64,000 nt of DNA, taken from assembly GCF_002259415.1 (NCBI RefSeq), contig NZ_NPFY01000011.1, positions 1 to 64,000 of the forward strand, read 5' to 3'. The position numbers were made by a program, and so were the translations under genes. The DNA comes from Rhodococcus sp. 14-2470-1b. GTDB taxonomy: Bacteria > Actinomycetota > Actinomycetes > Mycobacteriales > Mycobacteriaceae. How positions within the stretch are numbered: position 1 is the stretch's first letter; each line of letters opens with the position of its first letter. Under the pieces are notes generated by a model. It was not told the origin of the DNA. It saw nothing but the letters and a program-made list of their open reading frames with translations, and made no database searches. Shown here piece by piece: positions 1 through 45,342 of this stretch.

Positions 1-81
1 CGGGACAAGCTGCTTGCTGATGCCGACCGTGATCGGATGTAGACGCGAGCCCGTGCCGCCCGCCAGAATGATTCCCCGCAT
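1..81 (-). CDS. rmlA: Glucose-1-phosphate thymidylyltransferase, N-terminus only (cut by window edge)
   Basis: The minus strand opens with ATG at 81 and encodes 27 residues before the window ends. They contain the nucleotidyltransferase signature [11 protein letters not shown] followed by the conserved SKQLVP segment, which are the nucleotide and sugar-phosphate binding elements of RmlA/RfbA. The enzyme makes dTDP-glucose, the first step to dTDP-rhamnose, so it fits the neighbouring polysaccharide locus. It is divergent from the FrhB-like gene at 227, leaving about 145 bases for both promoters. The family call rests on the N-terminus alone. Other sugar-nucleotide pyrophosphorylases share the GGxGTRL motif, but SKQLxP favours the thymidylyl type. 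Confidence 0.85.
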
Positions 82-226
82 ACCGGGAAGTCTCCCAGAA
101 AAGACGAAGATTTGCTCATTTACTTCCCCGTGCTCCGAACATCAAGGACGCTGATCCACCCACCGATACTCAAGCCCGTAGACTAAGCGGTACCAACGCA
201 CAGTAGCCAATGTTAGGAACCTACTC

Positions 227-1453
227 TTGCCCAAGGACTCGCTTCTATCGGCTGTATCCCGCGTCGTAGAGAACGGCAACTGCACAGGTTGCGGAGGCTG
301 CGCAATGATTTCCAATAGAATCACTATGGACCTGAGCACCGATGGCTTCATGCGCCCGATAGTTGAGCGACTGAACCCCCAGCAGCAATCCAATCCACAG
401 GAGATTCTACAATTCAAGAAGACTTGCCCAGGATCAACGATGACTGCACCCAACGACGAGCAGCTACAAAAGGACGATATATTTGGCGCTTACGTATCTA
501 GCTGGGTCGCGTGGGCAGTCGATCCACAGATCCGCAATGCCGGCAGTAGTGCGGGCGTGTTAACCGCGTTAAGTAATTGGCTGATCTCCACCGGCAGGGT
601 AAATTCCGTCAAAGCCAGTGCCGAAGGACAGAGTGACCCCCGAAGGACCGTCCCTCTAACGATCACGTCCAGGGAAGAAGCACTAATTGCAGCAGGATCT
701 CGATACGCCCCTGTCGCAAACTTATCTAATCTAACTCGCGAAGACTTTAGAGATTCTGCCATAGTTGGGAAACCGTGCGAAGCATCTGCAATTAGACAGT
801 ACGCGGATGCCCTACAAATCCCGAAGGAAGACCGTCCGATCGTGATGTCGTTCTTCTGCGCGGGCACTCCGAGCCAACATGCAACCAACGCGCTGGCGGA
901 ACTGCTCGAAGCTCCCGTCGACGAGATTGAATCCCTACGTTACCGCGGTAACGGATGGCCAGGAGAATTCACGATAACGCTCACGAGCGGCGATAAGAAG
1001 ACAATGTCATACGACAAGTCATGGGGAAAGCATCTCGGCCGAACCGTCCAATGGCGTTGCAAGATCTGCGTAGACGGTACAGGTGGCCACTCCGACATCG
1101 CAGTCGGGGACTATTGGGAAGTAGACCAAAAAGGATATCCAACCTTCGAAAATGCTGACGGCAGATCGGTTGTAATCGCTCGCACAGCAAGAGGAGACGA
1201 ATTGCTACAACTTGCCGCCAATACCGGAGTAATTGTCACACAACCACTTAATTTAAGCCACGTTGCGGCAGTACAGCCATTACAGACTGACCGCAAGCAG
1301 ACACTGGCAGCAAGGCTCGCAGGACGACGAATCGCAGGGAAGCAAATACCACGCTATCGTGGATACGGCCTAATTCGGATTGCTAAAACCACCGGCAAGC
1401 GCAATATTCGTGCGTTTGCCGGCACATTTGTCCGCACACGGCAAGATCGCTGA
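227..1453 (+). CDS. FrhB-like (coenzyme F420 hydrogenase/dehydrogenase beta subunit family) iron-sulfur protein
   Basis: This 408-residue protein has a ferredoxin-like C-x2-C-x2-C cluster at residues 19, 22 and 25 with a further Cys-Pro at 67. A GKPCEA segment lies near 181. A second motif, CKICVDG with DIAVGDYW, spans about 278-297. These are the landmarks of the FrhB N- and C-terminal domains, which bind FAD and iron-sulfur clusters. In polysaccharide loci such genes often accompany pyruvyl transferases, and one lies nearby (3428-4555), but their reaction there is not established. The TTG start at 227 is preceded by AGGAAC at 215-220. It is the only rightward gene in the locus and ends 18 bases from the flippase stop. 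Codon use is AT-rich, suggesting transfer. Confidence 0.8.
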   Translation: MPKDSLLSAVSRVVENGNCTGCGGCAMISNRITMDLSTDGFMRPIVERLNPQQQSNPQEILQFKKTCPGSTMTAPNDEQLQKDDIFGAYVSSWVAWAVDPQIRNAGSSAGVLTALSNWLISTGRVNSVKASAEGQSDPRRTVPLTITSREEALIAAGSRYAPVANLSNLTREDFRDSAIVGKPCEASAIRQYADALQIPKEDRPIVMSFFCAGTPSQHATNALAELLEAPVDEIESLRYRGNGWPGEFTITLTSGDKKTMSYDKSWGKHLGRTVQWRCKICVDGTGGHSDIAVGDYWEVDQKGYPTFENADGRSVVIARTARGDELLQLAANTGVIVTQPLNLSHVAAVQPLQTDRKQTLAARLAGRRIAGKQIPRYRGYGLIRIAKTTGKRNIRAFAGTFVRTRQDR

Positions 1454-1471
1454 CTAACTGTTAAGCGACCG

Positions 1472-2746
1472 CTACACCCCACCTCTTAAACACAGGTTGA
1501 TCGAGGCCTTCACGTCCGCAGAATTGATTCGCAACACTGAAGGACCGATCCTTAAAGCCGCGAGACTTGAGAAAAACGTGACTACCCACCCCAATAAGAT
1601 TCCGATAGCAGCACCAACTGCACCTAAATGAGTCGACACAGCAAAAAGCCCCACAAGCGATACCAAAACACCACCGATCTGACAAATACTCATTGTCACT
1701 CCACGACCTTCCGCGCCTAACACCTGTGTTGACACATAGTTTCCAACCAGAACGGGAGAACCAGCAATGAGAATTAGAGCCGGGTGAACTGAACCATCGA
1801 ACTCCGCGCCAAATAGCAGCGGAATACCGGACGGAGCGAAAAAAGCAAGTACCATGCCAACAAGCACACCAAGATAGATAGCCGTCCTTATGGCAAGTCT
1901 TCGCACATGGATGAGTCGATCTGGTGGCGATGAAGCCACACTCTTAAATACCGCGGAACCAATTGCATATCCACCCGCAAGTGGTATCGCAGCGAGCGTC
2001 ATCGCCACCGACAAAAAACCCGTCTCGGTTGTACCGATCACAACTGCTGCAAACAGGAGCACAACAGTATTACTCGCTGTTTCGGCAATCTGACTCCCCG
2101 CATATCGCAGACCCCGACGTCCGACGAAGAGCATCGATGCACGGGGACCGAAAACCGGGACGCAAATCTGAGTTACAGCAATTATAGATGCGGCGGCCGT
2201 TCCAATGATGTACGAGATGAGCAGAAACGTTACAGTTACATCTGAGAAGATCCAGCATCCGATAACCAATGCGGCTGTAACACCAGGCTGAATGAACTGC
2301 AAAATCGCAATCTTGGTGAACTCCCCTCGACTAATCATCCCGCTTTGGACACTCAACACGATGATAAAAAGCGCAGACGTACCCATAGCGATACAAAAAA
2401 CTGAGCGGTCTCCTTGCGTGAGCCCTGGCAGAAGCAGAACAGAGACCAGCACCCCAAACGCGAACGCAGGACCTACTAGCAACATAGCAATTAGATAAGA
2501 TACTCTGATGACGGGCTCCAACGCACCAACGGATGCCATACGCCGAATTGCCATAGGGATTCCCAGACCCATCACGACCGGCGCGAGGCTAATCGCCGCA
2601 AGACACGTCGCATAGACACCACGACCATCGACACCCAATTCCCGAGATATAATTGGCGCAGTGCCTAAAGATATCAGCATAATGGCAATACGGCTTACAG
2701 AAATAAGTAGCGGTGAATTAGTGATTCGAGTTTTTCCTAATGACAC
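1472..2746 (-). CDS. Polysaccharide flippase, Wzx/MATE-like (oligosaccharide flippase family)
   Basis: This protein of about 424 residues is almost entirely hydrophobic, with roughly 12 membrane segments beginning near residue 14. It has the N-terminal SRELGVDGRGVYA segment typical of Wzx-type polysaccharide exporters. The expected role is to flip the lipid-linked repeat unit across the membrane for polymerisation. I chose the GTG at 2746 because it lies 16 bases after the upstream acyltransferase stop and places the first helix normally. Longer starts (ATG at 2785 or 2794) would overlap that gene and add polar residues. It is the last gene of the leftward operon and converges on the FrhB-like gene. 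Codon use is AT-rich. Confidence 0.85.
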   Translation of the reverse strand: MSLGKTRITNSPLLISVSRIAIMLISLGTAPIISRELGVDGRGVYATCLAAISLAPVVMGLGIPMAIRRMASVGALEPVIRVSYLIAMLLVGPAFAFGVLVSVLLLPGLTQGDRSVFCIAMGTSALFIIVLSVQSGMISRGEFTKIAILQFIQPGVTAALVIGCWIFSDVTVTFLLISYIIGTAAASIIAVTQICVPVFGPRASMLFVGRRGLRYAGSQIAETASNTVVLLFAAVVIGTTETGFLSVAMTLAAIPLAGGYAIGSAVFKSVASSPPDRLIHVRRLAIRTAIYLGVLVGMVLAFFAPSGIPLLFGAEFDGSVHPALILIAGSPVLVGNYVSTQVLGAEGRGVTMSICQIGGVLVSLVGLFAVSTHLGAVGAAIGILLGWVVTFFSSLAALRIGPSVLRINSADVKASINLCLRGGV

Positions 2747-2762
2747 AGTTTGATCGCAATCT

Positions 2763-3434
2763 CTACTGGGTTTTCTCGTCCACATTTTCACCATCGAGAT
2801 ACATCTTGACGTCGCCTGGGCCACGCATCCAGTATTCGCTACGAATAATCTCTTCGATACGTGTATGACTAAACCGATATCTGATAACTCGAGCCGGATT
2901 ACCCGCCACGACTGCAAATGGAGGTACATCTTTGGTCACAATCGAACCTGCACCGATAACCGCACCTATGCCGATAGACCTACAACCTGGCAAAATTATC
3001 GAATTCGCGCCAATCCAACAGTCATGTCCAATTACACAAGCAGTCCTGTCCACATCCCGCGATCTATCTACAAACCCGAGTGCCGGGTTGTACCAGAAGG
3101 GATGCATGCTCACACTATCTAAAGGGTGTGCCGCGCCAATCCTCCGTACGCCTGGACCGACTGATACATATCGACCAATTATTGTGTAAGCATCTGCGAA
3201 ACCCGGATGCAAGAGAGAACCATAACTGAAGTCGCCGACTGTAACCTTGAAGTAGTCGCGAAGAACTTCTCGCAAGCTCGTAGATAGCATAGGTCCGCCT
3301 TCGAGTTTGACAGCTATCGCCAAAACCTTCGACCTGACAGGAAGCCGCAAATAGTTCGATACAACAAACCGCCCAAAGACAGACGACCGCATACCGCCAG
3401 GCTGAACCTGTTTAACTCCCCATCGTTCTAACAC
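2763..3434 (-). CDS. CatB-like hexapeptide-repeat acyltransferase (polysaccharide O-acetyltransferase)
   Basis: A 223-residue left-handed beta-helix acyltransferase. The [14 protein letters not shown] segment (about 101-114) carries the likely catalytic His of the xenobiotic acetyltransferase type. Hexapeptide turns run through [15 protein letters not shown] and [17 protein letters not shown] to the family ending [14 protein letters not shown] near 174-187. It probably acetylates the repeat unit using acetyl-CoA (inference from context). The GTG start overlaps the stop of the pyruvyl transferase gene by 7 bases, so the two are probably translationally coupled. An internal ATG (residue 15) is a possible alternative start. 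Confidence 0.85.
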
Positions 3435-4555
3435 ACCGATGCACCGTATACCGCGTCAGTGATGGACGTCCATTGAGGTGCCTCAATGAAAGCCCTGATT
3501 TTGTTCTCTGCCTCCGAAGCGGCTGAAGCGACAGTCCTTTGTAGTTCAAGGAACACCGTTTCCTCAAGCATTCTCAACGTTTCGCCCACCGGATCGTCAG
3601 AAGTACTCAGATCAATTGTTGTCTGCCAGCCAATCGATTCCATTAGCGGCGCAAACTTTCGTGAGTATGACCAAGGAATCGCCACAGTACCAACGGCAAG
3701 CGCGTTAATAGCCGAATGCATTCGTGAGCCAACCAGGACTGCGCTATTGGCCAGAATACTTCGCACGTCCGCCAGGTCAGCAGGGATCAGGACTTCAACG
3801 TCGGACTTCGATGCCGCGGCGGCTGATTTTACGGCAGGAACATCATTATCCGCCAAAGGTGAATCCAGCACATGAGCCAACAGGCTGACGCGGCGACCTG
3901 CCAGTGTCAATTCATTTATGAGATTCAGCACATTTGTTCTGTACGATCGAAAGTCCACGTGCGGGTTTTCGTTCCAAAGCAGACCAGAAACGTTAAGCAC
4001 TACGTCGTAACGGTCGCCCCGGTCGTGCTTACTTAGCGCAAATGCCATATCAGTTGACTCGATATCGGTATTACGTCCAAGAATCCGAGAGTTACGACTG
4101 CTTTCTGGGTCGCGGGTGCAGACTAGCGCACTTTTACGCAACATCGACGTTGCCACTCGCTTACCGACCCATGTCCTGAATGGGCCGATCGTTTGCGGGG
4201 TCATCACTACGGGACGGCACGCTTTCCCTGCAGCAATTCTTACATATTTCATTAGCAGCAACCTACGCAACCCGTAGATATCGGTAAAGCTGTCACCGCC
4301 ACCTGTGTCCAGTATCAAGTCAAAGTCCCTAAAGAACGCGGTCATTCCACCAGGCCGTCCGCACAGATCTCGTATCATGGCGGCGCGAGTGAGTGGGGTG
4401 TCCCGCGTGTTATGGGTATGGAAGACGACATCGCACCCACCCCAGATTTGTTGGACTGCAGATCTTGCGCCACTGGCGAGTGCTTGCAAGCCCAAGTTCT
4501 CAGCCCGAGGATCCGCCCATAAAACTAAGACTCGAATATCCTTACGTTCTTTCAT
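3428..4555 (-). CDS. Polysaccharide pyruvyl transferase family protein
   Basis: A 375-residue member of the pyruvyl transferase (WcaK/CsaB-like) family. Visible landmarks are the N-terminal [18 protein letters not shown], the GGGDSFTD motif around residue 85, TPQTIGPF, and the C-terminal half with [13 protein letters not shown] and IPWSYSRKF. Such enzymes transfer pyruvate from phosphoenolpyruvate to a sugar as a ketal, giving the polymer an acidic group. The ATG at 4555 follows AGGAG with ideal spacing. An upstream start at 4630 would only add a low-complexity extension inside the previous gene. It overlaps the polymerase gene end by 14 bases. The FrhB-like protein in the same locus may act with it (inference). 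Confidence 0.87.
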
Positions 4556-5978
4556 TAGAAACTCCTGACGTATCATCGATAATTGATTTATGGTCGACGC
4601 GCTTCTCACCGATAATTTCCGAACATGCACTCGGGGAAACTATTTCGCGCAAAGCGTTCCTCGACTTCCAGTCGTAAAGCGATACGATTCCAAGATAGAA
4701 CCAAACAATTGATCCAAATTGAGTGATCAGCGCGACGGTAAACAGGGCTGGGACAACAGCCAACAGGCCAACCGCGGCGGCAGAAGATGTACGACGAGCG
4801 ACTTTTAGAGCCAGCCAGACGCACCCTGCCAATGCAAACGCCGCAATAGCGTAACCAAAGCTCACACCGAGCAGCACAAAAGTACTATCGATTGATTTGA
4901 AGCCTTGAAAATAGAAGACACCTGGCGACGGCTCTGCGTACCCCGACGCGAGACCAATAGGGTTCATCGACGGTATCAAGTCGATCAGCGTAACCCGGTA
5001 GTCCGAGGATATCGTGGCACGTCTTCCTTCTTCAGCGAAAACCGACATGACCTGCGGGACTGCGAACCACGCCACAACCCCGAGAACAAGAATTACCGCT
5101 AATTTACCCCGCGTGCGATTAGTCTCCGAGTAAAATACGAGCGATAGAACAACTGCGATGACCGCGGTGAGCATCCCCGATCGGCTAAACGAAGCCACCG
5201 TGCCCGCAACCAACAACGCTGCCATCGTGACTCGATACAGCGGTCTGAGGCTGCACGCGAACACCATCGGTATTGCCATCGCAAGCGAGCACCCCAAGGC
5301 TATCGAGTGACCAAAGGCCCATTCGGCGCGAACGATTCCACCGCGCTCCTGCTCGTGTCCCCACGCAAGATATTGAGTATTATTCACAGCCCAGCTGTAA
5401 TAGGGGTTCCAGTCAAATATGAATTCAATGACCGCACAGGCCGCAGCTGCAGAGAAGACAATTGCAATCGTGCGATATGCGAACTCAAGACCCGCACGCT
5501 GGACTAGCAATCTGCCCAGAACGAAGGAAAGGAGCCATTGCGTTATTACGTTTGTTACATCACCGGGGCGCGATAGTCCGAGCAATCCGCAAATTAAACA
5601 CAATCCGCATACCAAAAGCACTGCAGTGTCTATTCTTGACAGTCTCCACGGGTTGCGAGCGAATGCCCCGCCCAGCACGACAAGTCCAGCGAGCGAGCTA
5701 GCGGGCAAATAGAATGGGTTGTCAACTCCAATCCAGAATGGAACGAAGCAGCACACTACGAGCCAAAATGTCAGCGCAAACTTAGGATGTGTTACTGATA
5801 ACGAGAATATGGCAATAGCCGAGATAATCGCAAGTGCAGCGAGCCAGCCCATTAGGGCTGGTAGCAGAAACGAGAAGAACACAAGCGCAATCACCCAGAC
5901 CGCAGCCCATCGTTTACCACTTGGCGAAGAGGATTTAGGTGTCCAGTTTGGTGCCCAGTGTACGGTTTTCACCTCCAA
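4542..5978 (-). CDS. O-antigen ligase/polymerase-like membrane protein (Wzy type)
   Basis: A 478-residue protein with about 10-12 predicted membrane segments and a large extracytoplasmic stretch (about 320-370, rich in charged and aromatic residues), followed by YRVTLIDLIPSMNPIGLASG. This is the usual layout of the O-antigen ligase/Wzy domain. It would polymerise repeat units delivered by the flippase. A block with ...SFSRSGMLTA around residue 265 matches the conserved region before the large loop. It overlaps the GT2 gene by 10 bases and the pyruvyl transferase by 14 bases, consistent with a tight operon. Family sequence conservation is low, so the call rests on topology and locus position. 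Confidence 0.8.
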   Translation of the reverse strand: MEVKTVHWAPNWTPKSSSPSGKRWAAVWVIALVFFSFLLPALMGWLAALAIISAIAIFSLSVTHPKFALTFWLVVCCFVPFWIGVDNPFYLPASSLAGLVVLGGAFARNPWRLSRIDTAVLLVCGLCLICGLLGLSRPGDVTNVITQWLLSFVLGRLLVQRAGLEFAYRTIAIVFSAAAACAVIEFIFDWNPYYSWAVNNTQYLAWGHEQERGGIVRAEWAFGHSIALGCSLAMAIPMVFACSLRPLYRVTMAALLVAGTVASFSRSGMLTAVIAVVLSLVFYSETNRTRGKLAVILVLGVVAWFAVPQVMSVFAEEGRRATISSDYRVTLIDLIPSMNPIGLASGYAEPSPGVFYFQGFKSIDSTFVLLGVSFGYAIAAFALAGCVWLALKVARRTSSAAAVGLLAVVPALFTVALITQFGSIVWFYLGIVSLYDWKSRNALREIVSPSACSEIIGEKRVDHKSIIDDTSGVSNERT

Positions 5979-6952
5979 TCCTCCTTAAGAATTTCACGCG
6001 CAAAGAATAAGAACTTAATGTAACCCGGATCGGCGGTGGGTCGTTTTCGTCTGAACACAGCTTTCGCTCCGAAAGAATATGCCCTCGTAAGCATCCCTGC
6101 AAAGAAAACATACTTCCAAACAAAGTTCTGAACTGCAGAATGCGAGATATCGGACTTGTAGAGCTCGTATAAATTTGTCATCCAGTCTGTACTCGGCAAT
6201 TTCTGTACGGATCCGCTGCTTTTTCCAAGACCATGCACGCCCACCGCGTCGGCACTCAGCACTACAGCTAGGCCAGACCTATGAACTCGCAAGCAGAATT
6301 CGACATCCTCCGCGTACATGAACCACCGCTCAGTAAGGCCGCCCTGCGCGGTCCAAACCGACCGTGGAACCGCCATGCACGCACCCGAGACCCACTCGAC
6401 GGGAGTCGTTTGGAAGTTCTCTCGTCTTAAGATGTACAATCCGCGCAACCCGTGGTTGTCTGGTGAAATCCTTGATAAACCAAAGTAGTGACAGAAAACA
6501 CGCCACAGCGATGGTTTCATTCCCGCCTCACGGACTGCAAGGTTCAAGCCAGGATGTTCGAGCAATGGTGCGATCACGCCGATGTCGGGTCGCCTCAACA
6601 ATGTGTCGCGGAGAATTAGTATGTTTTTGACATCAACTATCGCGTCGGGATTGAGAAGAAGAATTACCTCACCGTTTGCGATACGAGCGCCCGCGTTGAC
6701 GGCTTTCGCAAACCCGTTGTTAACATCGCTTCTGATCAGATTTACCGATGGGTATGCCTCTGCAACGTGTTGCGCCGTACCGTCTTGCGAGGCGTTGTCG
6801 ACAACAATTATTTCTATGGCAGAAACGGAAGTCAACGGTGAAAGGCTATGTTGGAGCAACTCACGACTGTTGTAGGTCACCATCACGACCGACACTAGTT
6901 CGCTTCTCGTAGATTCAAGAAGTGGTTTCGAGGATCCAGGCTGATCGATCAA
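5969..6952 (-). CDS. Glycosyltransferase family 2 (rhamnosyltransferase-like)
   Basis: A 327-residue GT-A glycosyltransferase. The nucleotide-sugar binding start VSVVMVTYNS lies near residue 20, followed by EIIVVDNASQDGT (about 46-58), NNGFAKAVNAG and LLLNPDA in the DxD position, and later ERWFMYAEDVEFCLR with the catalytic-base type Glu-Asp pair. The arrangement resembles WbbL-type rhamnosyltransferases, which fits the rmlA gene at the window edge, but the donor cannot be fixed from sequence. The C-terminal 60 residues are hydrophobic and basic and probably associate with the membrane. It starts 6 bases after the GT4 gene stop. Confidence 0.88.
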   Translation of the reverse strand: MIDQPGSSKPLLESTRSELVSVVMVTYNSRELLQHSLSPLTSVSAIEIIVVDNASQDGTAQHVAEAYPSVNLIRSDVNNGFAKAVNAGARIANGEVILLLNPDAIVDVKNILILRDTLLRRPDIGVIAPLLEHPGLNLAVREAGMKPSLWRVFCHYFGLSRISPDNHGLRGLYILRRENFQTTPVEWVSGACMAVPRSVWTAQGGLTERWFMYAEDVEFCLRVHRSGLAVVLSADAVGVHGLGKSSGSVQKLPSTDWMTNLYELYKSDISHSAVQNFVWKYVFFAGMLTRAYSFGAKAVFRRKRPTADPGYIKFLFFAREILKEDWR

Positions 6953-6958
6953 TTACAC

Positions 6959-8131
6959 TCACCTTCGACCTTTGTCAATGCCGCTCTTACGAGATTTCAG
7001 TAGCTGAGCGACATGTCCAGCTATCTCCTTCCGGTACCGCTGAACTCCGAAGCGGTCGACGGCGCTTTCGTAAGCGTAATCGGCAATTCTTAATGCATCA
7101 GCCCAGTTGTTAATCACATGCGATACCGACGCCGCAAGCGCGTATGGGTCGCCCGCAACGGTCAGGCTTCCGGTATGGCCGTCTTCGACGATCTCCGACA
7201 AGCCCTGGACATTGGTGGCAATCAACGGCCGGTTAGCGAGTTGAGCCTCAACCGCGACGTTTCCGAACGGCTCCGCGAGAGAAGGCACCAAGATGATGTC
7301 GGCATCTCTTAGCTTTGTTTTGGCGTCCTCCACGTATCCCGCGAACACTACCCTGCCTGATAGGTCTGGCTTGAGCGCCCGTCGCTTTAGTTGTGATTCG
7401 AACCATTCATAGCCAGGAAAACTGTCACCATAGAGAGTAATTTCGACGTTGTAACCTTCGGCCACCAAGAGGCCTAATGCGTCAAGGGCGATGTCGGTAC
7501 CTTTACGGGGTGATAACCGCCCAACCAGCGCTAATCGGTACACGCCCTTGCTCGGCGCAGCCGGGGCTGGCTTGACGTCGTCGTGCGATATCCCGTTGTA
7601 AATGACGACTGCACGGTTTTTTAGCGCTGGGAAAGTGCGGACGATCACACGGTACGACGCCTTGCTATTTATGATTAAAGCCCGACAAAGTACCAATGGC
7701 AGAAGCAGCGCTCGGGTCAGGGTCTTGTTGGTTAGCTCTTCCGCTTCATGAACGTGACAGATGACGGGCACTCGGCAGATACGTCCAACCAGAAACCATA
7801 CGGGGGCCGTGATTGTGTTGGCGTATATGACGTCAGGTTTGACTTGCTTTAAAACTGCCGTAAGCGTGATGACTGCAATCACGCTCTGGACAGCGTACTT
7901 GGGGAGCCCTTTCACTGTCAGGTGAGACTTCCGACTAACGGGGAAGTCCATGACTTTCGTGGTTGCCCCTCGTTGGCGGATTAATCTCTGGAGTGGACCA
8001 ACTGATGGCAGCACAACAATGACCTCGCAGTTGAGTTCGACCAAGGCATCTATGGTCTCCAGAAGCTGCAAGTCTGATCCATAAAGGTCTGGCGAGGGAT
8101 GAGATACGAGTATTTTGCGTGCTGCTGCCAT
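6959..8131 (-). CDS. Glycosyltransferase family 4 (GT-B fold)
   Basis: A protein of about 390 residues with the N-terminal acceptor domain starting KILVSHPSPDLYGSDLQLLE and the C-terminal GT1/GT4 nucleotide-binding domain: LVGRLSPRKGTDIALDAL near 220 and the E-x7-E motif EPFGNVAVEAQLANRPLIAT near 305. It should add one sugar to the lipid-linked repeat unit on the cytoplasmic side. The ATG at 8131 overlaps the preceding acyltransferase stop in a TGATG junction. A longer start at 8176 would run back into that gene and adds no recognisable sequence. Confidence 0.87.
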   Translation of the reverse strand: MAAARKILVSHPSPDLYGSDLQLLETIDALVELNCEVIVVLPSVGPLQRLIRQRGATTKVMDFPVSRKSHLTVKGLPKYAVQSVIAVITLTAVLKQVKPDVIYANTITAPVWFLVGRICRVPVICHVHEAEELTNKTLTRALLLPLVLCRALIINSKASYRVIVRTFPALKNRAVVIYNGISHDDVKPAPAAPSKGVYRLALVGRLSPRKGTDIALDALGLLVAEGYNVEITLYGDSFPGYEWFESQLKRRALKPDLSGRVVFAGYVEDAKTKLRDADIILVPSLAEPFGNVAVEAQLANRPLIATNVQGLSEIVEDGHTGSLTVAGDPYALAASVSHVINNWADALRIADYAYESAVDRFGVQRYRKEIAGHVAQLLKSRKSGIDKGRR

Positions 8132-8826
8132 CAGCGCGCTCTCAGGAACTTTGCTGGGACTCCTCCATAGATGCAATTCTTCTCATAATCCCCCGCGATC
8201 ACAACGGCGCCTGCGGCTATTATGCAGCCGTCCCCGATGCGCGCACCGTCCAGTACTGTGACGCGCGCTCCAATCCAGCAGTCGTTGCCGATCGTGATAC
8301 CAGAATGGCTTACACCCTGTTCACGAATGGGTATTTCTAGCGAGCTAGAGTTGTGATTTTCTGAATGAAACGAGCAGAAGTTCCCTACGATTGTGTTGTC
8401 ACCTATTTCTATGCCGCCGGCGCATCCGTAGAACGAATCTGTCCCGAGCCCGACATTGTCGCCCGCTGTAAGACCCATACCCAGGTGCTTCAGGCTTCCG
8501 ACGCATTCGATGCGGGTGTTCTTTCCAACAGTTGTGTTCCTTCCGAGCGATACACCTTGTGACGACATCGCGTCAATGAACGAACCGTCGTCCAGAGAGA
8601 CGCCCGGAGACACGGTAAGTCTACGTTTCCCTCGAAATCGGACGTTCCGACCGACAAAGGGTGAGCCATTTATTTTCTTGAAACTAACGACCCCCCTGAC
8701 ACGCATTGCAAGCCGTCGGACAAGTTCGCTTATCAAATAGTCAGTGTGGATCTTTGGGTCTACAGTATATTCGTGGCCCTTTACGGCGGTAACAAGTTTG
8801 TTGAACCATCGCTCAGTGAGGCTCAT
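8131..8826 (-). CDS. Hexapeptide-repeat acyltransferase (WbbJ/LbH type)
   Basis: A 231-residue protein whose middle and C-terminus form a left-handed beta-helix. Repeats run from VGRNVRFRGKRRLTVSPG to GSFIDAMSSQGVSLGRNTTVG, and a typical ending DCWIGARVTVLDGARIGDGC leads to YGGVPAKFLRAR. The FHSENHN segment near 150 carries the His commonly catalytic in WbbJ-like O-acetyltransferases. It is the second acyltransferase of the operon, so the polymer is probably decorated at two positions (inference). It overlaps the glycosyltransferase genes on both sides by 1 and 4 bases. Confidence 0.85.
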   Translation of the reverse strand: MSLTERWFNKLVTAVKGHEYTVDPKIHTDYLISELVRRLAMRVRGVVSFKKINGSPFVGRNVRFRGKRRLTVSPGVSLDDGSFIDAMSSQGVSLGRNTTVGKNTRIECVGSLKHLGMGLTAGDNVGLGTDSFYGCAGGIEIGDNTIVGNFCSFHSENHNSSSLEIPIREQGVSHSGITIGNDCWIGARVTVLDGARIGDGCIIAAGAVVIAGDYEKNCIYGGVPAKFLRAR

Positions 8827-9944
8827 GCGTAGCGTCCCTTGCCGTGGCTATTCAAAGATGTTAGTGCGTCAACGTACTTTCTGCACACCTCGTCCCACCC
8901 GTAAAACTTTTGAGCACGTTCGACAGCTGCAGCGCTCAAAGTCAGCTGTTGTTGGCGATCTACCATCAGTAGCTGAATCATGGATGCGATGGCAGTCGCG
9001 TCGGGTGAAACGAATAGCCCGGCGTCTCCAATCACTTCACGGTTGTAGACCGTGTCACGGGCAACTATGGGCGCGCCGCATGCCATTGCCTGCACTAATG
9101 CCGGATTAGTACCTCCCACACTGTGGCCATGAAAGTAGGCGCCGGCGTGTTTCCACAAAGAGAACAATCTTCGGTCGTCGCTCACATGACCAAGCCAATG
9201 CACACGAGGAGACCTGTCCGCGAGACTCTGCACAGTTTGTTCTAACTGGCCGCCGTAGCCCGAACTGCCCACTATTACGACGTCGTGTCTTTGACTTAAA
9301 TCTTCTGCGGCCTTTACAAATTCTGCCACTGTGTTTTCTGGCACGAACCGTGCGACCAACAGAACATAGGTGCCCGCGCGGAATTCCGGGTCATCATCTG
9401 AAAATGGCGCTTCGTCGCCTCCGTACGGTATGAAGTGTCCGTCCCTGCCAAATTCGACCGACCATCGACGTTTGATCTCGACGGAGTCGCAGATGATTTC
9501 GTCAGCGAATCGCGCTGTTAACTTGGCTCCTGAATGGAAAACTTTCTTGGCCGTCTTACCCCACTTTTCGCGTTCCCATTCCATTCCATCAACATTTACG
9601 ATCGTCCGCACACCGCGAAACCGGAGAGCAGGTAAGAAGAACCCGTTTGCTACGTTCATCACCAACGCCACGTCCGGCTTTTCGTACGCGGTGTGCGCAC
9701 AGTTGGTCAGGCCGCTCGTTAGAGTTGAAAGAGACTTGGTCTCAACCCCTGGGATGACGATTGACCTTACACGTTCATCCCGGTTTGGATCATCTGCCCG
9801 AATTGCGCCTTTTCGGCCGTAAACCGATACTGCCCAGCCCTCGTCTGCCAAATATGGCGCTAAACGTCTGACAAGCGTCTCGAAGCCGCCGTAGTAGCTT
9901 GGATATCCCCGAGTACCGATAATTGCCACTTCTTTTGCGGTCAT
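8823..9944 (-). CDS. DUF1972-domain glycosyltransferase (GT4-like)
   Basis: A 373-residue glycosyltransferase. It begins KEVAIIGTRGYPSYYGGFET, the hallmark of the DUF1972 N-terminal domain found in rhamnosyl- and related transferases. Its C-terminal GT-B nucleotide-binding domain has LLVARFVPENT near 190 and HGHSVGGTNPALVQAMACG near 275. It probably adds the second sugar after the initiating transferase, since it is the first glycosyltransferase gene after that enzyme (inference). Its stop overlaps the acyltransferase start by 4 bases. It starts 66 bases after the sugar transferase stop, and the AT-rich composition begins about here. Confidence 0.87.
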   Translation of the reverse strand: MTAKEVAIIGTRGYPSYYGGFETLVRRLAPYLADEGWAVSVYGRKGAIRADDPNRDERVRSIVIPGVETKSLSTLTSGLTNCAHTAYEKPDVALVMNVANGFFLPALRFRGVRTIVNVDGMEWEREKWGKTAKKVFHSGAKLTARFADEIICDSVEIKRRWSVEFGRDGHFIPYGGDEAPFSDDDPEFRAGTYVLLVARFVPENTVAEFVKAAEDLSQRHDVVIVGSSGYGGQLEQTVQSLADRSPRVHWLGHVSDDRRLFSLWKHAGAYFHGHSVGGTNPALVQAMACGAPIVARDTVYNREVIGDAGLFVSPDATAIASMIQLLMVDRQQQLTLSAAAVERAQKFYGWDEVCRKYVDALTSLNSHGKGRYA

Positions 9945-10010
9945 TTCCGACTTTCGTACGTTGACAGGTCTAATTTTCCGGTCTAGCGGTTCGTGGCGTA
10001 TCGAAATACT

Positions 10011-38270: not shown

Positions 38271-39491
38271 TTGCTGGTGCGAGATACCCGGCGACGCGGT
38301 GGCGTGTGGATCGACGTCCTGGTCGTGGCGGCTATAGTGACCGGCGGGACGGCGATTGCCGGTGCGACCAACAACCCACAGCCCGACGCCATGGCGATAC
38401 CTGGCTGCGATGTGGTCCAGCCCGCCCAAGACGGTGTCTCCTTCGCCATCGGCACGTATGGCGGTAAATACGACAATCCTGACTATCCGTGGCTGACGGC
38501 ATCCAAGGCGACGGCGATGTCGGATGCGTTGATCGAATCACTGCCCACTGGAGTCGAACTGCAGTTCGCGGCTCCGTCGACCTCGTTGGTGTTCCAGCCG
38601 ATCGATGTTTATCCGTCCGACGCATCGCTACCGGACGGAATCACCGTCGAGGACATCAGCGGCGACAGCACGGCCTCGGGCATCGTCGAAAAATCCGGTG
38701 TCTCCGCGCGCCTGAGGGTGTCGGTCCAGGAGTGGGACCGCGGGGTACCCGCGTGTGTCGCGGAGCAGCTCGACGAACGAACTACACTCCCCGGCGGTAC
38801 CGTCGTCGACACGTCAGACGCAGTCTCTGTGCTTGACGGCGAGCCGACGCATCGCCGGTATGCAACTGCGTATTTCGCGGACACCATCGTCGGTGCAACG
38901 ATGTCGAACGACGGCGAGAATGCGGCGCTCCCACTCGAGGTCGGCGAGCTCCGAGACATCGTCTCGAATCCGGAATTACGTGTCAGCGCGACGGTGCCCG
39001 ATGGAACTCCGCTGCCGCGTCGTGACTGCGGCTCGTCACGTGAGAACCCTGTTCCGCCTCTGCCGAGGGAACAGATAGAACGCATCGGCAGCGCCCTTGC
39101 CGACCGATGGGCAAGATTTTTCCCCGACGCCCGCACAGACCGTCCGCTGAACGACCTCCTCCCCGGCAGATCCGGCAGTGGAAGTGCCTGCACCAGTGTC
39201 ACTGTCGTGACGCCGTCGGGACCGTCCGAGTTGACCGTGGACATCTCGGTCCAAGAGGGTAGCGCATGGCGTGACGCTGGGGAGTCGAGCAGCCCCAGGG
39301 TGAACGGAACAACTTTGCCCGACGGGGGTGTCGTCACCCGCTGGTCCGACGAGTTCGCCGCCGGTGCACGACCGTCCGAGTACGTGAGCGTGCTCCGGCC
39401 GTCGAACACGCGCGTGCAGTTCGGCTTCGGCGAAGGAATCGATGTCGACACGCTCGTTGCTCTCGCGTCGTCACCGGGACTGGATCTGTAG
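38271..39491 (+). CDS. Exported hypothetical protein, paralog of the one at 40638-41945
   Basis: A protein of about 406 residues with an N-terminal membrane anchor (about 12-30) and a large extracytoplasmic part. It shares IPGCD-x-V-x-P, YDNPDYPWLT..KATAMSDAL, AAPSTSLVFQP, TVVDTSD and LPDGGVVTRW-like blocks with the protein encoded at 40638-41945, so the two are paralogs. Several cysteines are conserved between them. No domain is recognised. The start is uncertain (TTG at 38271 or GTG at 38277). It points toward the propeller gene, with which it converges. Confidence 0.72.
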   Translation: MLVRDTRRRGGVWIDVLVVAAIVTGGTAIAGATNNPQPDAMAIPGCDVVQPAQDGVSFAIGTYGGKYDNPDYPWLTASKATAMSDALIESLPTGVELQFAAPSTSLVFQPIDVYPSDASLPDGITVEDISGDSTASGIVEKSGVSARLRVSVQEWDRGVPACVAEQLDERTTLPGGTVVDTSDAVSVLDGEPTHRRYATAYFADTIVGATMSNDGENAALPLEVGELRDIVSNPELRVSATVPDGTPLPRRDCGSSRENPVPPLPREQIERIGSALADRWARFFPDARTDRPLNDLLPGRSGSGSACTSVTVVTPSGPSELTVDISVQEGSAWRDAGESSSPRVNGTTLPDGGVVTRWSDEFAAGARPSEYVSVLRPSNTRVQFGFGEGIDVDTLVALASSPGLDL

Positions 39492-39543
39492 AAAGCTCCC
39501 GATCGGCATGCCGGGACAGCATGGTCCAAAAACGATCACCGTC

Positions 39544-40641
39544 TCATTCGACGAGCTTGACGATCGAGCTGGAGCTCACGAAGTACACCCCGGATTCCGC
39601 CTCCACAACCGTTCCCGACGCAGTGAACCCGTCGACATCCACTGGCAGTGACCACGCCCAGAACACATCCCCGGTTTCACGGTCAGCAGCGATGATCGAA
39701 CTGCCGTCCTGGGAGTAGACAGTCTGTCCGATCGTCTTCTCGACCGCGTACGGATCCTCCAGCTTCCATACCTCGGTGTCGGAGTCCGTGTCGAAGACTG
39801 TTGTTTGCGAACGTAATTCGAGGCTGTCGACGGCCGATCCCGTCACCGTATCGAAGAACTCGGCGTCGCTACCGAGAGTGATGACGCCCCGATCGTCGTG
39901 CACGTGTATCAATGTCGACTCGATACCGTCCCAGGTGGCGAACCCGGTGACGGGTAGAGACCAGGCGCCGGCCAACGCGTCGACGCTGCCACCGTGCAGG
40001 ACCGATTCACCGTCCTCCGGGTTGCCCTCCAGGATGAACACCGATTCGCCGTCGGACTCGATCCCGTAGGTGAACCAACCCTGCGGCAGGGGAACTCGGC
40101 GCAGGGCCCCATCCTGCGCATCGATGGCGACGATGGCCGGCACGTCCGCGTACGAATCCAGGCACACCAGTTCTCCGCGAGTGAGTCGACTTGCGCAGGT
40201 GTCGACACCTCCGGGCGACGCCGACCAGCGCACGGTGCCGTCACCGGCGTCGATTCCCAGCAACTTCGGCGAATCGAACGAGTACGTTCGTGGGTTGGGC
40301 AAGCCGACGGCGGTGATCAGCACGTCGCCACCGTCGACGACGCCGTAGAGGCTGGAATCGAACAACAGCCCCGCCGAAGGCGCACGCAAGGCTGCGAAGT
40401 CACGCCCGTACGCGGCCGACGCGTCGGTCGACCATTCCGGTGTGTGCGCGGGACCGGGCGAGGCCTCGGTGGTGGTCGCGGACTCCACTTCGCTGTACTC
40501 GGCCCAGTCGCCCACCGACGCATCGTCGGTGGGCGCATCGGGGGTGGTCCGAGTGAGGGCGACGCCCGCTGCCGCGACGGCAGCCACGGCGACCACCACT
40601 GCTACTGCGGTCCGCAGCGTGTCCTTGCGTGCTCTGCTCAC
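39544..40641 (-). CDS. PQQ-like beta-propeller protein, membrane-anchored
   Basis: A 365-residue protein with a single membrane anchor near the N-terminus (about 8-28) and a Thr/Pro/Ala-rich linker to about 75. A beta-propeller of PQQ-like repeats follows, visible in LLGIDAGDGTVRWSASPGG, AIVAIDAQDGALRRVPLP and IIAADRETGDVFWAWSLPVD. Each ends with the dipeptide and Trp pattern of these blades. It probably binds partners outside the membrane rather than acting as an enzyme. The GTG start overlaps the upstream gene stop by 4 bases, so the two exported proteins are translationally coupled. Confidence 0.78.
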   Translation of the reverse strand: MSRARKDTLRTAVAVVVAVAAVAAAGVALTRTTPDAPTDDASVGDWAEYSEVESATTTEASPGPAHTPEWSTDASAAYGRDFAALRAPSAGLLFDSSLYGVVDGGDVLITAVGLPNPRTYSFDSPKLLGIDAGDGTVRWSASPGGVDTCASRLTRGELVCLDSYADVPAIVAIDAQDGALRRVPLPQGWFTYGIESDGESVFILEGNPEDGESVLHGGSVDALAGAWSLPVTGFATWDGIESTLIHVHDDRGVITLGSDAEFFDTVTGSAVDSLELRSQTTVFDTDSDTEVWKLEDPYAVEKTIGQTVYSQDGSSIIAADRETGDVFWAWSLPVDVDGFTASGTVVEAESGVYFVSSSSIVKLVE

Positions 40642-41945
40642 GGCCACTGTCCGATCGGGGTGTTGGCGACGGCGTCGAGCACTTCCGCCGACAGAGGCTC
40701 GGGAAGCGTCAGGGGCGCTCGTCCCCCTGCGGCGATCTCGACCGTCGACCGCGCCGACACCTGCACACCGGACGGGCGAGTGACCGTCACCGATCGCGAC
40801 AACAGCCCGGTACCGTCCTCGGACGTCATCATCTGAGTGATGTCCGTGTCCAGAAACTCGACGACCGATCCGTCGGGCAGCGTTCGGAGAACCGGTAGTT
40901 GGCCGTAAAAGGATGGATCGTAAGGGTCCGGGGCAGTCGGGAGGGGTTGTCCGCCGGCAACCGACACCGCCAATCGAATGGTGCCGTCCCCGACGCCCAC
41001 GTCGGTGCAGATTCCCGACCCGAAACCGTCCGGGACCAATGATCCGATGGGGCGGTCCAACGCCGGTGCGTCCCGAATTGCCGCCCAACTCGCAGTGAAT
41101 GCTGCGTTCGCTGCATCCACGGCCTCGCGGCTCAGATCTTTCACCGTTCCGTCGCCCGGCGGATACACCGAGCAATCGACCTGGAGCACCGGGCTTTCCG
41201 CCGGAGATGGAGCCGACATCGCCAGCTCCGGTATCGAAGCAATGGCCGCAGCTTCTTGTTGCTCCAGCGGCATCGCCGGCGACGAACCGGCACTCTGATA
41301 CACGCTGACGCGCGTGCCGTCCTCGCGATAGGCGGTGGCCGAGCGTGAGTAGGTCCGCACGCCGTCGATTTCGTACCATGAGTCACCACTGTCGACGACG
41401 GTTCCGTCGGCGTCGATATCGCGCCGTTCGAGAGCGCCCGCGACACATGGGGGCACACCATCACTCGACGGCCCGACGTTGACCGACACGAACGCCGTGA
41501 CACCGTCACGCGTCAACTCCGCGTGCGCGGTGGTCATCGGATCGAACTCACTGTCGCCGAAATCGGTGACAGGAGCGAAGTTCAGCGAATTGGAGGGTGC
41601 AGCCACATCGATCTCGACGTCGGCCGGCAATGCTGCCCGCACGGCCTCGGACATCGCCGCGGCCTTGGCAGTGGTGAACCACGGGAAATCAGGATTGTCG
41701 TAGGTGCTGTCCCCTCCGAAGGAAGACGTGGCGAACAACTCGCCCTCGTCCTCCACCGGAGGTTCGACGGTGTCGCACCCCGGGATGTCCGCGGACACGT
41801 CGACCGGCGCGCTGACGAAATTCCCGGTGGTGGACGGACCGGTCTCCCCCGACGGGATGAAGCTTGCGACCACGACTCCCACCGCAACGATGGTGACGAC
41901 CACCGAAATGGTCCTGATTCGATCGAGCAGCCCGCTGTCGGTCAC
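40638..41945 (-). CDS. Exported hypothetical protein, paralog of the one at 38271-39491
   Basis: A protein of about 435 residues with one membrane anchor (about 11-30, ISVVVTIVAVGVVVASF) and a long extracytoplasmic domain. IPGCDTVEPPVEDEG, YDNPDFPWFTTAKAAAMSEA, AAPSNSLNFAPV, GTVVDSGDSWYEI and LPDGSVVEFLDTDI parallel the protein encoded at 38271. No known domain is recognised. The GTG at 41945 is the best start, since the longer frame to 42164 is Arg/Cys-rich. It is coupled to the propeller gene by a GTGA overlap. Confidence 0.72.
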   Translation of the reverse strand: MTDSGLLDRIRTISVVVTIVAVGVVVASFIPSGETGPSTTGNFVSAPVDVSADIPGCDTVEPPVEDEGELFATSSFGGDSTYDNPDFPWFTTAKAAAMSEAVRAALPADVEIDVAAPSNSLNFAPVTDFGDSEFDPMTTAHAELTRDGVTAFVSVNVGPSSDGVPPCVAGALERRDIDADGTVVDSGDSWYEIDGVRTYSRSATAYREDGTRVSVYQSAGSSPAMPLEQQEAAAIASIPELAMSAPSPAESPVLQVDCSVYPPGDGTVKDLSREAVDAANAAFTASWAAIRDAPALDRPIGSLVPDGFGSGICTDVGVGDGTIRLAVSVAGGQPLPTAPDPYDPSFYGQLPVLRTLPDGSVVEFLDTDITQMMTSEDGTGLLSRSVTVTRPSGVQVSARSTVEIAAGGRAPLTLPEPLSAEVLDAVANTPIGQWP

Positions 41946-42081: not shown

Positions 42082-45000
42082 TCACGGACCCTGCAAGTCC
42101 GGTTCATCGCCGGTGATCGGCTCGTACGCGAGAGTCGACACATCGCGGAGCAACTCGGACGCATCGACCATCCCGATGTTCGGGTTGGTGACGAATGCCT
42201 GGACTATCTTCTGCTCGGCCCACATAGCCGGGCTCGCCACGTTGAATCCAGGGAAAGCCAGGATGACAGCGACCGTGTCCTCGTCGACTCGCTTGCTGAT
42301 AGAGATCTGCGCGCCCTTGTCCTGCGGTTCTTCGCGTTCCCACCCGAGCCGCTCCAACGCGAGCAATTGAGAAGTTGCAACCTTGGTGTTGTCCAACACC
42401 GCCAATCCCGAGGACACATCGTCGCGGAAGACGTCCCTGTCCACCTGCTCGAAAGGCTGCACCAGGTGAGCATCAGCGAAGGCAAGTCGCCACAACTCGA
42501 TCTCGACACCCATTGTGACGGGGTGGATGACGAATACGTCGTCGGCGTCGTCGATGCTCAGGTCGGACCCATCCCGACGCACTGCGTTCCGTGAGGCCGA
42601 GAAAGCGAACTGGTCGCCGCTGTCGGTGGACCACACGAGCCGACCCACGATCTGCCATGCCACCGGGTGTCCGACGAGATGCCGTCGAACCTGCCCGTAT
42701 GTCCACCTGCGGCCGGTGACCATGGCGCGTTCGAAGCGCTGGATCAGCTCGCCGCGCGCTGCGTCGAGGTCCCGTCGCAACGTGGTGTACCGCTTGAACT
42801 CCTCAGCCGCTTCATCCGCATCGTCGGGACCTGGCCGCGGCATTCGAGCGCGCGTTTTCCCGTTGCTGTCGGTGATGGCGATCTTCAACGCATGGTCCAG
42901 CGACAACGTGAACGACCTCGACCCATAGTCGAACATCGTTGTGCCGTCGGCGTCGAGGCCCAGATCGGGAATGAGTCGGTCCGCGAGATCGGCCGGGGTG
43001 AGGGCCAGTTCGTCTGCGATCTGCCGAATCCGAGCGTCGGCTTTCGCGCGTAGAGCCGGGAACCGCAACCCCTGCGATATCGCCCAGATGTGTCCGAGCG
43101 CCGCATCGGTTCCGATTGCGGCGAGCACGTCCAACCCCGCCGCTGCTCGCCGGTGTGCGGACTGCAGCGGCCATTTCCGCACGAACGGCGCCAGACGCCG
43201 TGCAGTTTCGTCGTCTCCGACTATTCCGAGCGCGTCCAAGCACCACCGTTGCGCATCGGGACATCCAGCGCTGGACCAACGTTCGAACAGATCCCATGCA
43301 AGTGACTCGAGACTGCCGGGAGCGACGAGCGTGCGAACCACCGCAACGCCGGCATATACCTCGTCCAACTTCGACAACGCGAACATCGTGCAGATGTTCC
43401 CGACCGCCTCCGGAGGCAACGGCTCTTTACTGTCGACCAAAGTGACAGTGGGCAGCAAAGCGGGATCCAGCCATGCGGGCAAGGTAGGTGTTCGCGTCGG
43501 TAGATCGAACAGCGGGTCCGAGTCCACGAACGCGGTGACGGCAGCGGCAGCCGAGGATCCGAACTCGGTCGCTGCCGCAACCAGTGCGTCGCGGTGCCCA
43601 CGCTTCGCGAGCGTGCGAAGTGCTGCGAGGGCAGCTTTCCTCGCATCACTCGATCTCCCCGATGCGGCCACGACTACGACTGGCGCTGCACTGTCGATAT
43701 GCCGATCGAACCACTGCAAGGCGACCGGCCGCATGGCTTTCGAGCCGAGCCAGGTCGCCATAGTCGAAGCCACCGAAGACCCCGTCACCGGCAGCAGCAC
43801 CGATGCGCTGAACGTCGGCCTGGTTACCACCACCCGGAAGACGTAATCCACTGCGTCGTCGCCGAATCGGACCAACAGCCGCCGGAGATCGGCCTCGGGG
43901 CGAAAGATCCAGCGCGGGATCGCGGCGTCGGCAAGCAGCGGTCGTAGTAGTTCTTCTGGACCGCGCGAGATCTCGTACAACTGGTAGGCGTCGGAACCTT
44001 CCGCGACGGGACGGAGAATGTCCGACCAGGTACGACGACCGAGATACATCGGGTAGTCCGGCTCAGGTTCTGCGAAGTGGTCTCGTTCGTCCTGAAGCCA
44101 CGTGACGGTCAACGCATCGCGCGGAGCCTCCAGGTCGAGGACGGGCATGCGGGCTTGTCTACGATCACCCGTCCACGGCGGTTCGGTAAGCAGGGTCGGC
44201 ACGGGGCCCGCCTGCGGTACCGACGGCTCGTTCTCATCGCGGTCCCCGGAAAGGTCGGGGTGGAGCCGTTCGAGATCCAATTTCAGTCGTGCCGCCTTCG
44301 GGCCCGCTGTGGCACCGAGCAAACGGTGAGCGCGGAACGGCGCGGCTTCCATCGCTGCCAGGACAGCGGGCTCGACGTACTTGCGACCGAGACGTTCGAC
44401 CAGTTCGAGGAACCCGTCATCGGTGTCGAACTCGGCGAGAATCGCAGCACATCGCTTCTTGTTCTGCGAGGACAAGTTTCCGTCGAAAAGCTCTCCGACA
44501 AGTGGTTCGACGCCAGGGCCAAGGTTCGCGCAGATCGCGTGCACGAGATTCATCCGCATCCCGAGACTCCACATCGCGTCGTCGCGTGTCCTGTGCGCGT
44601 CGAGTATTCGTTCGACATCACGGGCGGAAGTGACACACGCCAGCAGCGGCATGTGGTCTTGCTCGTGATACCGAGGGAGACCCGAAGCAGCAGCCAAGTC
44701 CTCCTCGACCCAGCTGGACTCGGTCGGCAGGAGGAACGAGATCGACAGGTCACGTGCATAGCTGGCGCCTCTCAGCGTTGCCAGGACATCGACGACGCGC
44801 CGGTACTCCTCGTCCGGCAGTGCGGCGACCGCGGTCCGCACACGAGAGTGCGTGTCTCCTATGCCGAAGTTCAGCATGTCCATATCGCGGCGTCCGGTTA
44901 CCCAGATCGTCAGGACGTTACCGCGAGAACTCCGCTCCGACCTCATGTCGACCCGCATACCGGCCGCGGCGACGATCACTTCGGCAGCGAACGCTGCTCC

Positions 45001-45342
45001 CCTGGTGACGATGACCTCGTCGACGAAAGGAACACTCTGCTTGTAGTTGGTGTGATCGATCGTGGCCCTGAACGCAAAAGCAATGGCGCGCGCTGTTGGC
45101 GCCGTGCCATGCGAATGCGCGTCGAGAAACTCCAGACCCGCTGCAGCCGAGACTGCGTCGGTATCGGGGTGGCGGATGGCGTCGCCGATACGCGTCGCAT
45201 CTCCGACCAGCCCCTGCACGACCGATGACTCCCGCACCCGCACCTTGCTTCTCGCCACCGGAGTCCGGCCATGCACGGCCTCGCCGCGACGCCACCACGC
45301 TGGAGGGACTGCCCAGGGCCGTTCACCGATCGTCACGAACAC
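42082..45342 (-). CDS. DUF4132-domain protein (large, MolR-like)
   Basis: A 1086-residue soluble protein, one of the largest in the window. The C-terminal region carries the DUF4132 features: GRRWTYGQVRRHLVGHPVAW, then GRLVWSTDSGDQFAFSASRN and DDADDVFVIHPVTMG near 920-980. The preceding part is helical and repeat-like, resembling HEAT-type armadillo repeats (LAALRTLAKRGHRDALVAAA). No signal peptide or membrane segment is seen. The family's function is unknown. It stands alone on the minus strand between the propeller group and the serine hydrolase gene. The start at 45342 is not fixed by a clear ribosome site. Confidence 0.8.
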   Translation of the reverse strand: MFVTIGERPWAVPPAWWRRGEAVHGRTPVARSKVRVRESSVVQGLVGDATRIGDAIRHPDTDAVSAAAGLEFLDAHSHGTAPTARAIAFAFRATIDHTNYKQSVPFVDEVIVTRGAAFAAEVIVAAAGMRVDMRSERSSRGNVLTIWVTGRRDMDMLNFGIGDTHSRVRTAVAALPDEEYRRVVDVLATLRGASYARDLSISFLLPTESSWVEEDLAAASGLPRYHEQDHMPLLACVTSARDVERILDAHRTRDDAMWSLGMRMNLVHAICANLGPGVEPLVGELFDGNLSSQNKKRCAAILAEFDTDDGFLELVERLGRKYVEPAVLAAMEAAPFRAHRLLGATAGPKAARLKLDLERLHPDLSGDRDENEPSVPQAGPVPTLLTEPPWTGDRRQARMPVLDLEAPRDALTVTWLQDERDHFAEPEPDYPMYLGRRTWSDILRPVAEGSDAYQLYEISRGPEELLRPLLADAAIPRWIFRPEADLRRLLVRFGDDAVDYVFRVVVTRPTFSASVLLPVTGSSVASTMATWLGSKAMRPVALQWFDRHIDSAAPVVVVAASGRSSDARKAALAALRTLAKRGHRDALVAAATEFGSSAAAAVTAFVDSDPLFDLPTRTPTLPAWLDPALLPTVTLVDSKEPLPPEAVGNICTMFALSKLDEVYAGVAVVRTLVAPGSLESLAWDLFERWSSAGCPDAQRWCLDALGIVGDDETARRLAPFVRKWPLQSAHRRAAAGLDVLAAIGTDAALGHIWAISQGLRFPALRAKADARIRQIADELALTPADLADRLIPDLGLDADGTTMFDYGSRSFTLSLDHALKIAITDSNGKTRARMPRPGPDDADEAAEEFKRYTTLRRDLDAARGELIQRFERAMVTGRRWTYGQVRRHLVGHPVAWQIVGRLVWSTDSGDQFAFSASRNAVRRDGSDLSIDDADDVFVIHPVTMGVEIELWRLAFADAHLVQPFEQVDRDVFRDDVSSGLAVLDNTKVATSQLLALERLGWEREEPQDKGAQISISKRVDEDTVAVILAFPGFNVASPAMWAEQKIVQAFVTNPNIGMVDASELLRDVSTLAYEPITGDEPDLQGP

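Follow-up and report, generated by a model that had tools for sequence, protein, structure and literature searches.

Two overlapping genes from Rhodococcus sp. 14-2470-1b, here called C and B, very probably encode a single unit that serves the cell envelope, with both proteins anchored in the membrane and facing outward. The pair is widespread among Rhodococcus, Nocardia, and related genera. The genes lie in a 64,000-nucleotide stretch of DNA (contig NZ_NPFY01000011.1, positions 1 to 64,000; hereafter the window), next to a third gene, A, that encodes a paralogue of C. The first-pass annotation of this DNA had proposed that two related exported proteins and a membrane-anchored β-propeller together form a cell-surface complex. 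All three genes are present where it had placed them. A two-protein surface complex is well supported for C and B, which are coupled, adjoin each other across genomes, and in one lineage are naturally fused, but the evidence goes against a three-gene system: A is an old solo branch of the C family that stands beside the pair only in this lineage.

40638..41945, minus strand: gene C (435 amino acids, aa), with an N-terminal hydrophobic helix and two tandem, putatively PsbP/Mog1-like domains
39544..40641, minus strand: gene B (365 aa), with an N-terminal hydrophobic helix and a shortened PQQ/BamB-like β-propeller
40638..40641, minus strand: GTGA overlap of the C stop and B start, probably allowing translational coupling; a four-nucleotide NTGA overlap is kept in 37 of 51 intact named loci
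38271..39491, plus strand: gene A (406 aa), a C paralogue with no propeller partner, a lineage-specific neighbour outside the conserved unit

Taken singly, none of the three proteins reaches a Pfam or NCBIfam family cut-off, and A and C match no Pfam family at E ≤ 1. The ratio of nonsynonymous to synonymous substitution rates (dN/dS) is 0.20 to 0.28 for A, B, and C, indicating purifying selection on all three.

Conservation, coupling, and fusion of C and B

Genomes sampled evenly across the family, 201 in total, served to follow the distribution of the pair. Only the best candidates per genome were scored, and the counts are therefore lower bounds: C-like genes occur in at least 55 of the genomes and B-like genes in at least 48. 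All 48 B-bearing genomes have a B immediately after a C in the same orientation; this holds for 53 of the 57 B rows, spread over 51 places. The remaining four B rows are weak, and 27 C rows, fragments among them, have no adjoining B. A second set comprised 67 named C loci from Rhodococcus, Rhodococcoides, Nocardia, Prescottella, Williamsia, Gordonia, Antrihabitans, two metagenome-assembled genome bins, and one record labelled Kitasatospora; B follows C in 56 of these. The last record (L109, titled Kitasatospora arboriphila) has Williamsia muralis neighbours and groups with W. muralis in a tree of the family, and is probably mislabelled or contaminated. In a close relative, Rhodococcoides fascians A44A, C and B are 95.6% and 96.2% identical to the proteins from the window.

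The overlap that the first-pass annotation had pointed out at the C/B junction, located at 40638-40641, is a recurrent feature. After five loci with disrupted frames were removed from the 56 with B, 37 of 51 showed the four-nucleotide overlap, five a one-nucleotide overlap, and nine a possible start codon within five nucleotides. Genes beyond C and B vary between clades. In two genomes of the same genus (G128 and G208), C and B are a single open frame of 806 aa, in which one N-terminal helix is followed by two C-type repeats and, after a short linker, a propeller that has no helix of its own. The two fusion proteins are nearly identical and were therefore counted as one event. This arrangement argues for contact between the ectodomains of C and B and for their location on one side of the membrane, and we infer the topology of the pair and the physical contact of its members.

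A class-wide search of 296 genomes gave only two weak half-domain matches outside the family (G353 and G362), and no viral relatives were confirmed. A relative in two plasmid records is annotated "hypothetical protein", and the pair was not found described in the open-access literature that was searched, subscription papers lying outside that search.

The genome carries further C-family copies, full-length on contig 12 (44% identity) and half-length on contig 1 (43%), with short fragments on contigs 13 and 19, and no second copy of B at E ≤ 1. The full-length copy (L174, C12:106000-119000; gene at 112102-113439, minus strand) has lost its B, in place of which there is a short scar and an unrelated 429-aa open reading frame on the other strand (C12:110756-112045) with no Pfam match; the A44A counterpart, locus L077, still has B. 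In G056, the next relative, a second and decayed-looking C-B copy is present (L185, G056:C36:12000-20000), where only the C end and two B frames match.

Protein C is a tandem duplication

The family to which C belongs has no name, and in predicted structure C is a tandem duplication whose halves resemble PsbP, Mog1, LpqN, and RseB at the level of fold only.

41859..41909, minus strand: hydrophobic N-terminal segment of C, about residues 13-29, read by eye
41196..41711, minus strand: first repeat of C, residues 79-250, from the model, hhalign of the halves, and fold matches
40641..41162, minus strand: second repeat of C, residues 262-435, from the same three sources

The AlphaFold model of C has a predicted local distance difference test (pLDDT) score of 85.6 and a predicted template modelling (pTM) score of 0.83, and is confident except at residues 1-32. 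It contains nearly the same order of elements twice, with a helix, long and short strands, and a helix, and profile comparison shows one half to be homologous to the other (hhalign probability 97.9, E 3.4e-13, 101 columns). By eye, the tail before the helix is about 12 residues long at the N termini of C and B. Four cysteines (C57, C167, C258, and C313) are invariant among 51 C sequences and are probably disulfide-bonded. The description of these proteins as exported or membrane-anchored in the first-pass annotation can be kept as a prediction, its basis being one hydrophobic N-terminal stretch that follows basic residues, read by eye, and the four invariant cysteines of C.

Structural alignment with VIA-align matched both halves of C to the small domain of RseB/MucB, PsbP, the soluble domain of TiME, and Tsi3. 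The first half also matched an Rv0999 orthologue, Mog1, MTC28 (Z 5.9), and Eag chaperones, and the second half LpqN (Z 6.3, root-mean-square deviation (rmsd) 3.8, 133 residues), while DcrB spans both halves. We take most of these proteins (PsbP, Tsi3, Mog1, LpqN, Eag, and others) to be one PsbP/Mog1-like group of alpha/beta domains, in which helices flank an antiparallel sheet. The RseB/MucB small domain aligns with each repeat at Z 7.4-7.8 over 91-98 residues. RseB is a soluble protein with a second, large domain; C instead combines a membrane helix with two small repeats. The top Foldseek rows for C, an invasin barrel at E 7.9e-4, were set aside as meaningless at a template modelling (TM) score of about 0.1. 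Sequence searches of the PDB with C gave three weak, chance-like rows, and a search with the C profile gave no match.

Protein B is a shortened β-propeller

The B family consists of PQQ/BamB-like propellers, and B is shortened in this clade. The propeller recognized in the first-pass annotation is borne out by the family as a whole: 41 of 42 members match PF13360 (PQQ_2) at E ≤ 0.01, the exception being the B of the window, and the family profile matches BamB at 6.9e-15. The model of the window's B itself aligns with propellers, with Z 15.1 and rmsd 4.3 over 242 residues for YncE and Z 13.2 for BamB, and BamB is its top Foldseek match (TM about 0.35). At 365 aa, this B is about 90 residues shorter than most relatives, which have about 440-490 aa. 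The gaps in its alignment fall over the late blades, and the model (pLDDT 73.7 overall) has low confidence within residues 278-339. The short form is common to A44A and G056. B begins with a hydrophobic stretch and, by eye, has no cysteine before residue 100, and therefore no lipoprotein anchor. The B family belongs to the same propeller group as BamB, and B differs from BamB in having an N-terminal membrane helix, no lipoprotein anchor, and C as a partner. LpqB, a propeller lipoprotein, presumably resembles the pair; its LpqB and GerMN Pfam domains are absent from the matches of C members (E ≤ 0.1) and of B members (E ≤ 0.01).

Genes upstream of the pair

In ten of the 67 named loci, from two clades, a gene of the MMPL family (PF03176, verified on two representatives) lies upstream of C-B in the same orientation. 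Six belong to the erythropolis group, with a spacing of 195-330 bp (one contig, that of L087, holds only the end of the MMPL gene), and four to the Prescottella/R. equi group, with a spacing of 457 bp in one locus and 1.8-2.5 kb in three. By reading, a catalase-like gene lies between MMPL and C-B in three Prescottella/R. equi loci. In the family draw, 49 of the 51 places were fetched, and 11 of them had an upstream MMPL gene, partly on the same contigs as the named loci. The MMPL proteins of the two groups are only 24-26% identical, which makes two separate origins of the association probable. The Rhodococcus sp. 14-2470-1b genome has 10 clear MMPL genes in 5.9 Mb; at that density, chance would give about 0.04 MMPL contexts among roughly 20 independent ones, both figures being rough and worked out by hand. 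The idea of a link to MmpL proteins was recorded before the neighbour was identified, although its position and length (about 740 aa) had already been seen. The neighbour test was aimed at MMPL, which appeared as expected, while genes for sigma factors and kinases emerged unasked from the same listing and recur beside C as often as MmpL genes do.

Possible roles of the C-B complex

We propose that in Rhodococcus, Nocardia, and relatives C and B together make up one extracytoplasmic complex. One helix would anchor C in the cytoplasmic membrane, from which its two PsbP/Mog1-like domains would project, and B, anchored likewise, would present its PQQ/BamB-like propeller. The two proteins would be produced together via their overlapping genes and bind each other. 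On the likeliest reading, the complex would act as a scaffold or accessory of envelope export, for which the probable clients in this proposal would be MmpL-type lipid transporters. A role in envelope export in general is a serious possibility that falls somewhat short of probable. Service to MmpL-type export specifically, suggested by the fold, the architecture, and the MmpL neighbours in two clades, is tentative. Equally tentatively, C-B may be an unrecognized extracytoplasmic adaptor that serves MmpL-type lipid exporters in non-mycobacterial mycolic-acid bacteria; in this adaptor, the tandem PsbP-like domains would touch transporter and lipid, the propeller would hold the complex together, and transporter lineages would have recruited it independently.

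The proposal draws on a parallel with mycobacteria, where LpqN-family proteins and the propeller MSMEG_5308 serve MmpL proteins. Excerpts of two studies describe interaction of LpqN with MmpL3 and MmpL11, and of LpqT and Mtc28 with MmpL11 (PMC8427324, PMC7458404). As is predicted for C, the Lpp-LpqN family (PF10738: LpqN, LpqT, and MTC28) is linked to the envelope and lies outside the cytoplasmic membrane, and the predicted fold of C may be similar. C differs in having two domains, a membrane helix in place of a lipid anchor, and a coupled propeller. It also has no sequence or profile match to PF10738, which is not among the Pfam matches of 51 C members at E ≤ 0.1, and the fold similarity of Z 5.9-6.3 is below the trusted level. 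The genome encodes a separate, true PF10738 protein. Across 61 genomes, LpqN occurs in 4 of 14 with C and 22 of 47 without C, an opposite trend in raw counts only. In a second parallel, an excerpt of PMC6593404 reports that the seven-bladed propeller MSMEG_5308 stabilizes the MmpL3-TtfA complex. This MmpL3 accessory set (TtfA and MSMEG_5308/Rv1057) resembles C-B in combining a single-helix protein with a β-propeller, there acting on one transporter (PMC6593404). Unlike the adjoining C and B genes, the TtfA gene (MSMEG_0736) and MSMEG_5308 are not neighbours by their locus tags.

Several observations weigh against this proposal. The fold matches of C all lie at Z of about 5-8, none at Z 8, a range for which the tool warns of a possibly common arrangement, and Foldseek gives LpqN, EagT6, PsbP, and DcrB only at E 0.016-0.1. 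No profile kinship of C with LpqN was found, as hhalign with 26 LpqN sequences gave a probability of 0.4-0.5% against both halves. The C terminus of TtfA is reported, in the same excerpt, to be cytoplasmic, unlike the proposed topology of C, and TtfA is therefore no direct parallel (PMC6593404). B is missing from 7 of the 55 C-bearing genomes and from 11 of the 67 named C loci, and a quick tree (73 rows, with 4 of the 67 named loci omitted for broken frames, and with weak deep forks) requires at least seven gains or losses of B; C can therefore do without B. MMPL neighbours are limited to two clades, mostly with an intervening gene in the second. Two clades likewise have a sigma-factor-like gene as the direct upstream neighbour of C, and in three there are kinase-like genes upstream in divergent orientation.

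These last genes bear on a different role, in which C-B would be an envelope sensor whose domains and propeller read an outside signal that is relayed to a sigma factor or two-component regulator. RseB acts as such a signal reader for RseA, and the small domain of RseB/MucB ranks near the top of the fold matches for either half of C. By sequence reading, a sigma-factor-like gene of the extracytoplasmic function (ECF) type lies directly upstream of C in Nocardia cyriacigeorgica (L072, L101). Such a gene has the same position in R. maanshanensis/R. oryzae (L094, L118; about 48% identical). Also by reading, genes resembling histidine kinases (28-33% identical) are found upstream in divergent orientation in L082, L113, and L125/L126. 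Propellers are also found in membrane-associated kinases, judging from PDB names. However, family scans found no signalling domain in C or B, the tails of about 12 residues precede the helices, and recurrence is weak evidence because regulators are common genes. We consider a sensor doubtful, although credible. A YciI-like gene was also seen near the sigma-factor-like gene in the four loci named above.

A role in helping exported proteins in general to fold or assemble, in which a BamB-like propeller would be combined with a chaperone-like domain of the DcrB/Eag type, is unlikely. The profile match of B to BamB and the place of BamB at the head of its Foldseek list favour this role, as do DcrB and the Eag/SciW chaperones among the fold matches of C. 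However, no assembly-machine gene recurs beside the pair among the clusters and genes read, and a patchy presence, in 55 of 201 genomes, speaks against a core role.

Gene A has a separate history

A and C are full-length paralogues, with 36% identity across 358 residues (E 1e-46), a relationship that extends well beyond the three short blocks noted in the first-pass annotation. The C-family profile also retrieves A, and the four cysteines of C are kept in A in their alignment. A and B are convergent, with 52 bp between them, placing A outside the C-B operon. The A and C clades are well separated in the quick tree, and a recent tandem duplication of C as the origin of A is unsupported.

Among 36 other genomes of the genus, five carry an A orthologue (61-69%), and in none of these was a B found at a distance of up to about 4-6 kb. 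In three of the five, A is followed by a half-length paralogue, weakly matched in one, and genome G204 has a remnant of the end of A. The flanks of the 67 named C loci (up to 10 kb, less at contig ends) contained no second, A-like gene, with one locus that has a split C set apart. G056 has C-B and no A. The C-B locus of A44A has the same wider gene order with both immediate neighbours different: A is missing, and what is left of it, the last 49 bp and a separate 47-bp piece, is followed by an unrelated gene of 319 aa. This 319-aa frame (L064:12599-13558) is lipoprotein-like by eye and has no Pfam match. Upstream of C in the window and on the same strand is a large DUF4132 gene (42082-45342) with no match at that place in A44A, where a 263-aa open reading frame is found instead. 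The A44A scar suggests that A was probably beside C-B in the common ancestor of both strains, but is dispensable. Between genomes, A has a dN/dS of 0.23-0.28, and this purifying selection implies that A is functional where it is kept. A would be an older, solitary representative of the C family, with a different partner or no partner at all, brought beside the pair through lineage history.

That A, B, and C form one cell-surface complex is very improbable: the homology of A and C, the shared cysteines, the selection on A, and the A44A scar speak for it, but the five genomes with A orthologues showed no B within some 4-6 kb of A, A44A and G056 carry C-B without A, and A is convergent with B, so that conservation of the trio as a unit, the point on which the first-pass annotation had staked its proposal, is rejected.

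Elsewhere in the window, positions 1-10000 have a G+C content of 0.51-0.53, compared with 0.62-0.66 from 12 kb on, and hold polysaccharide cluster genes (glycosyltransferases, Wzy-like, pyruvyl transferase, and sugar transferase). This cluster was perhaps acquired.

Implications

The analysis gives two nameless protein families their first structural description. If C-B were a sensor, it would be an undescribed kind of envelope sensor. C-B, a coupled and once-fused pair built of fold types already tied to MmpL function, may be a concrete candidate for a part in the handover of lipids by MmpL transporters across the mycolic-acid envelope.

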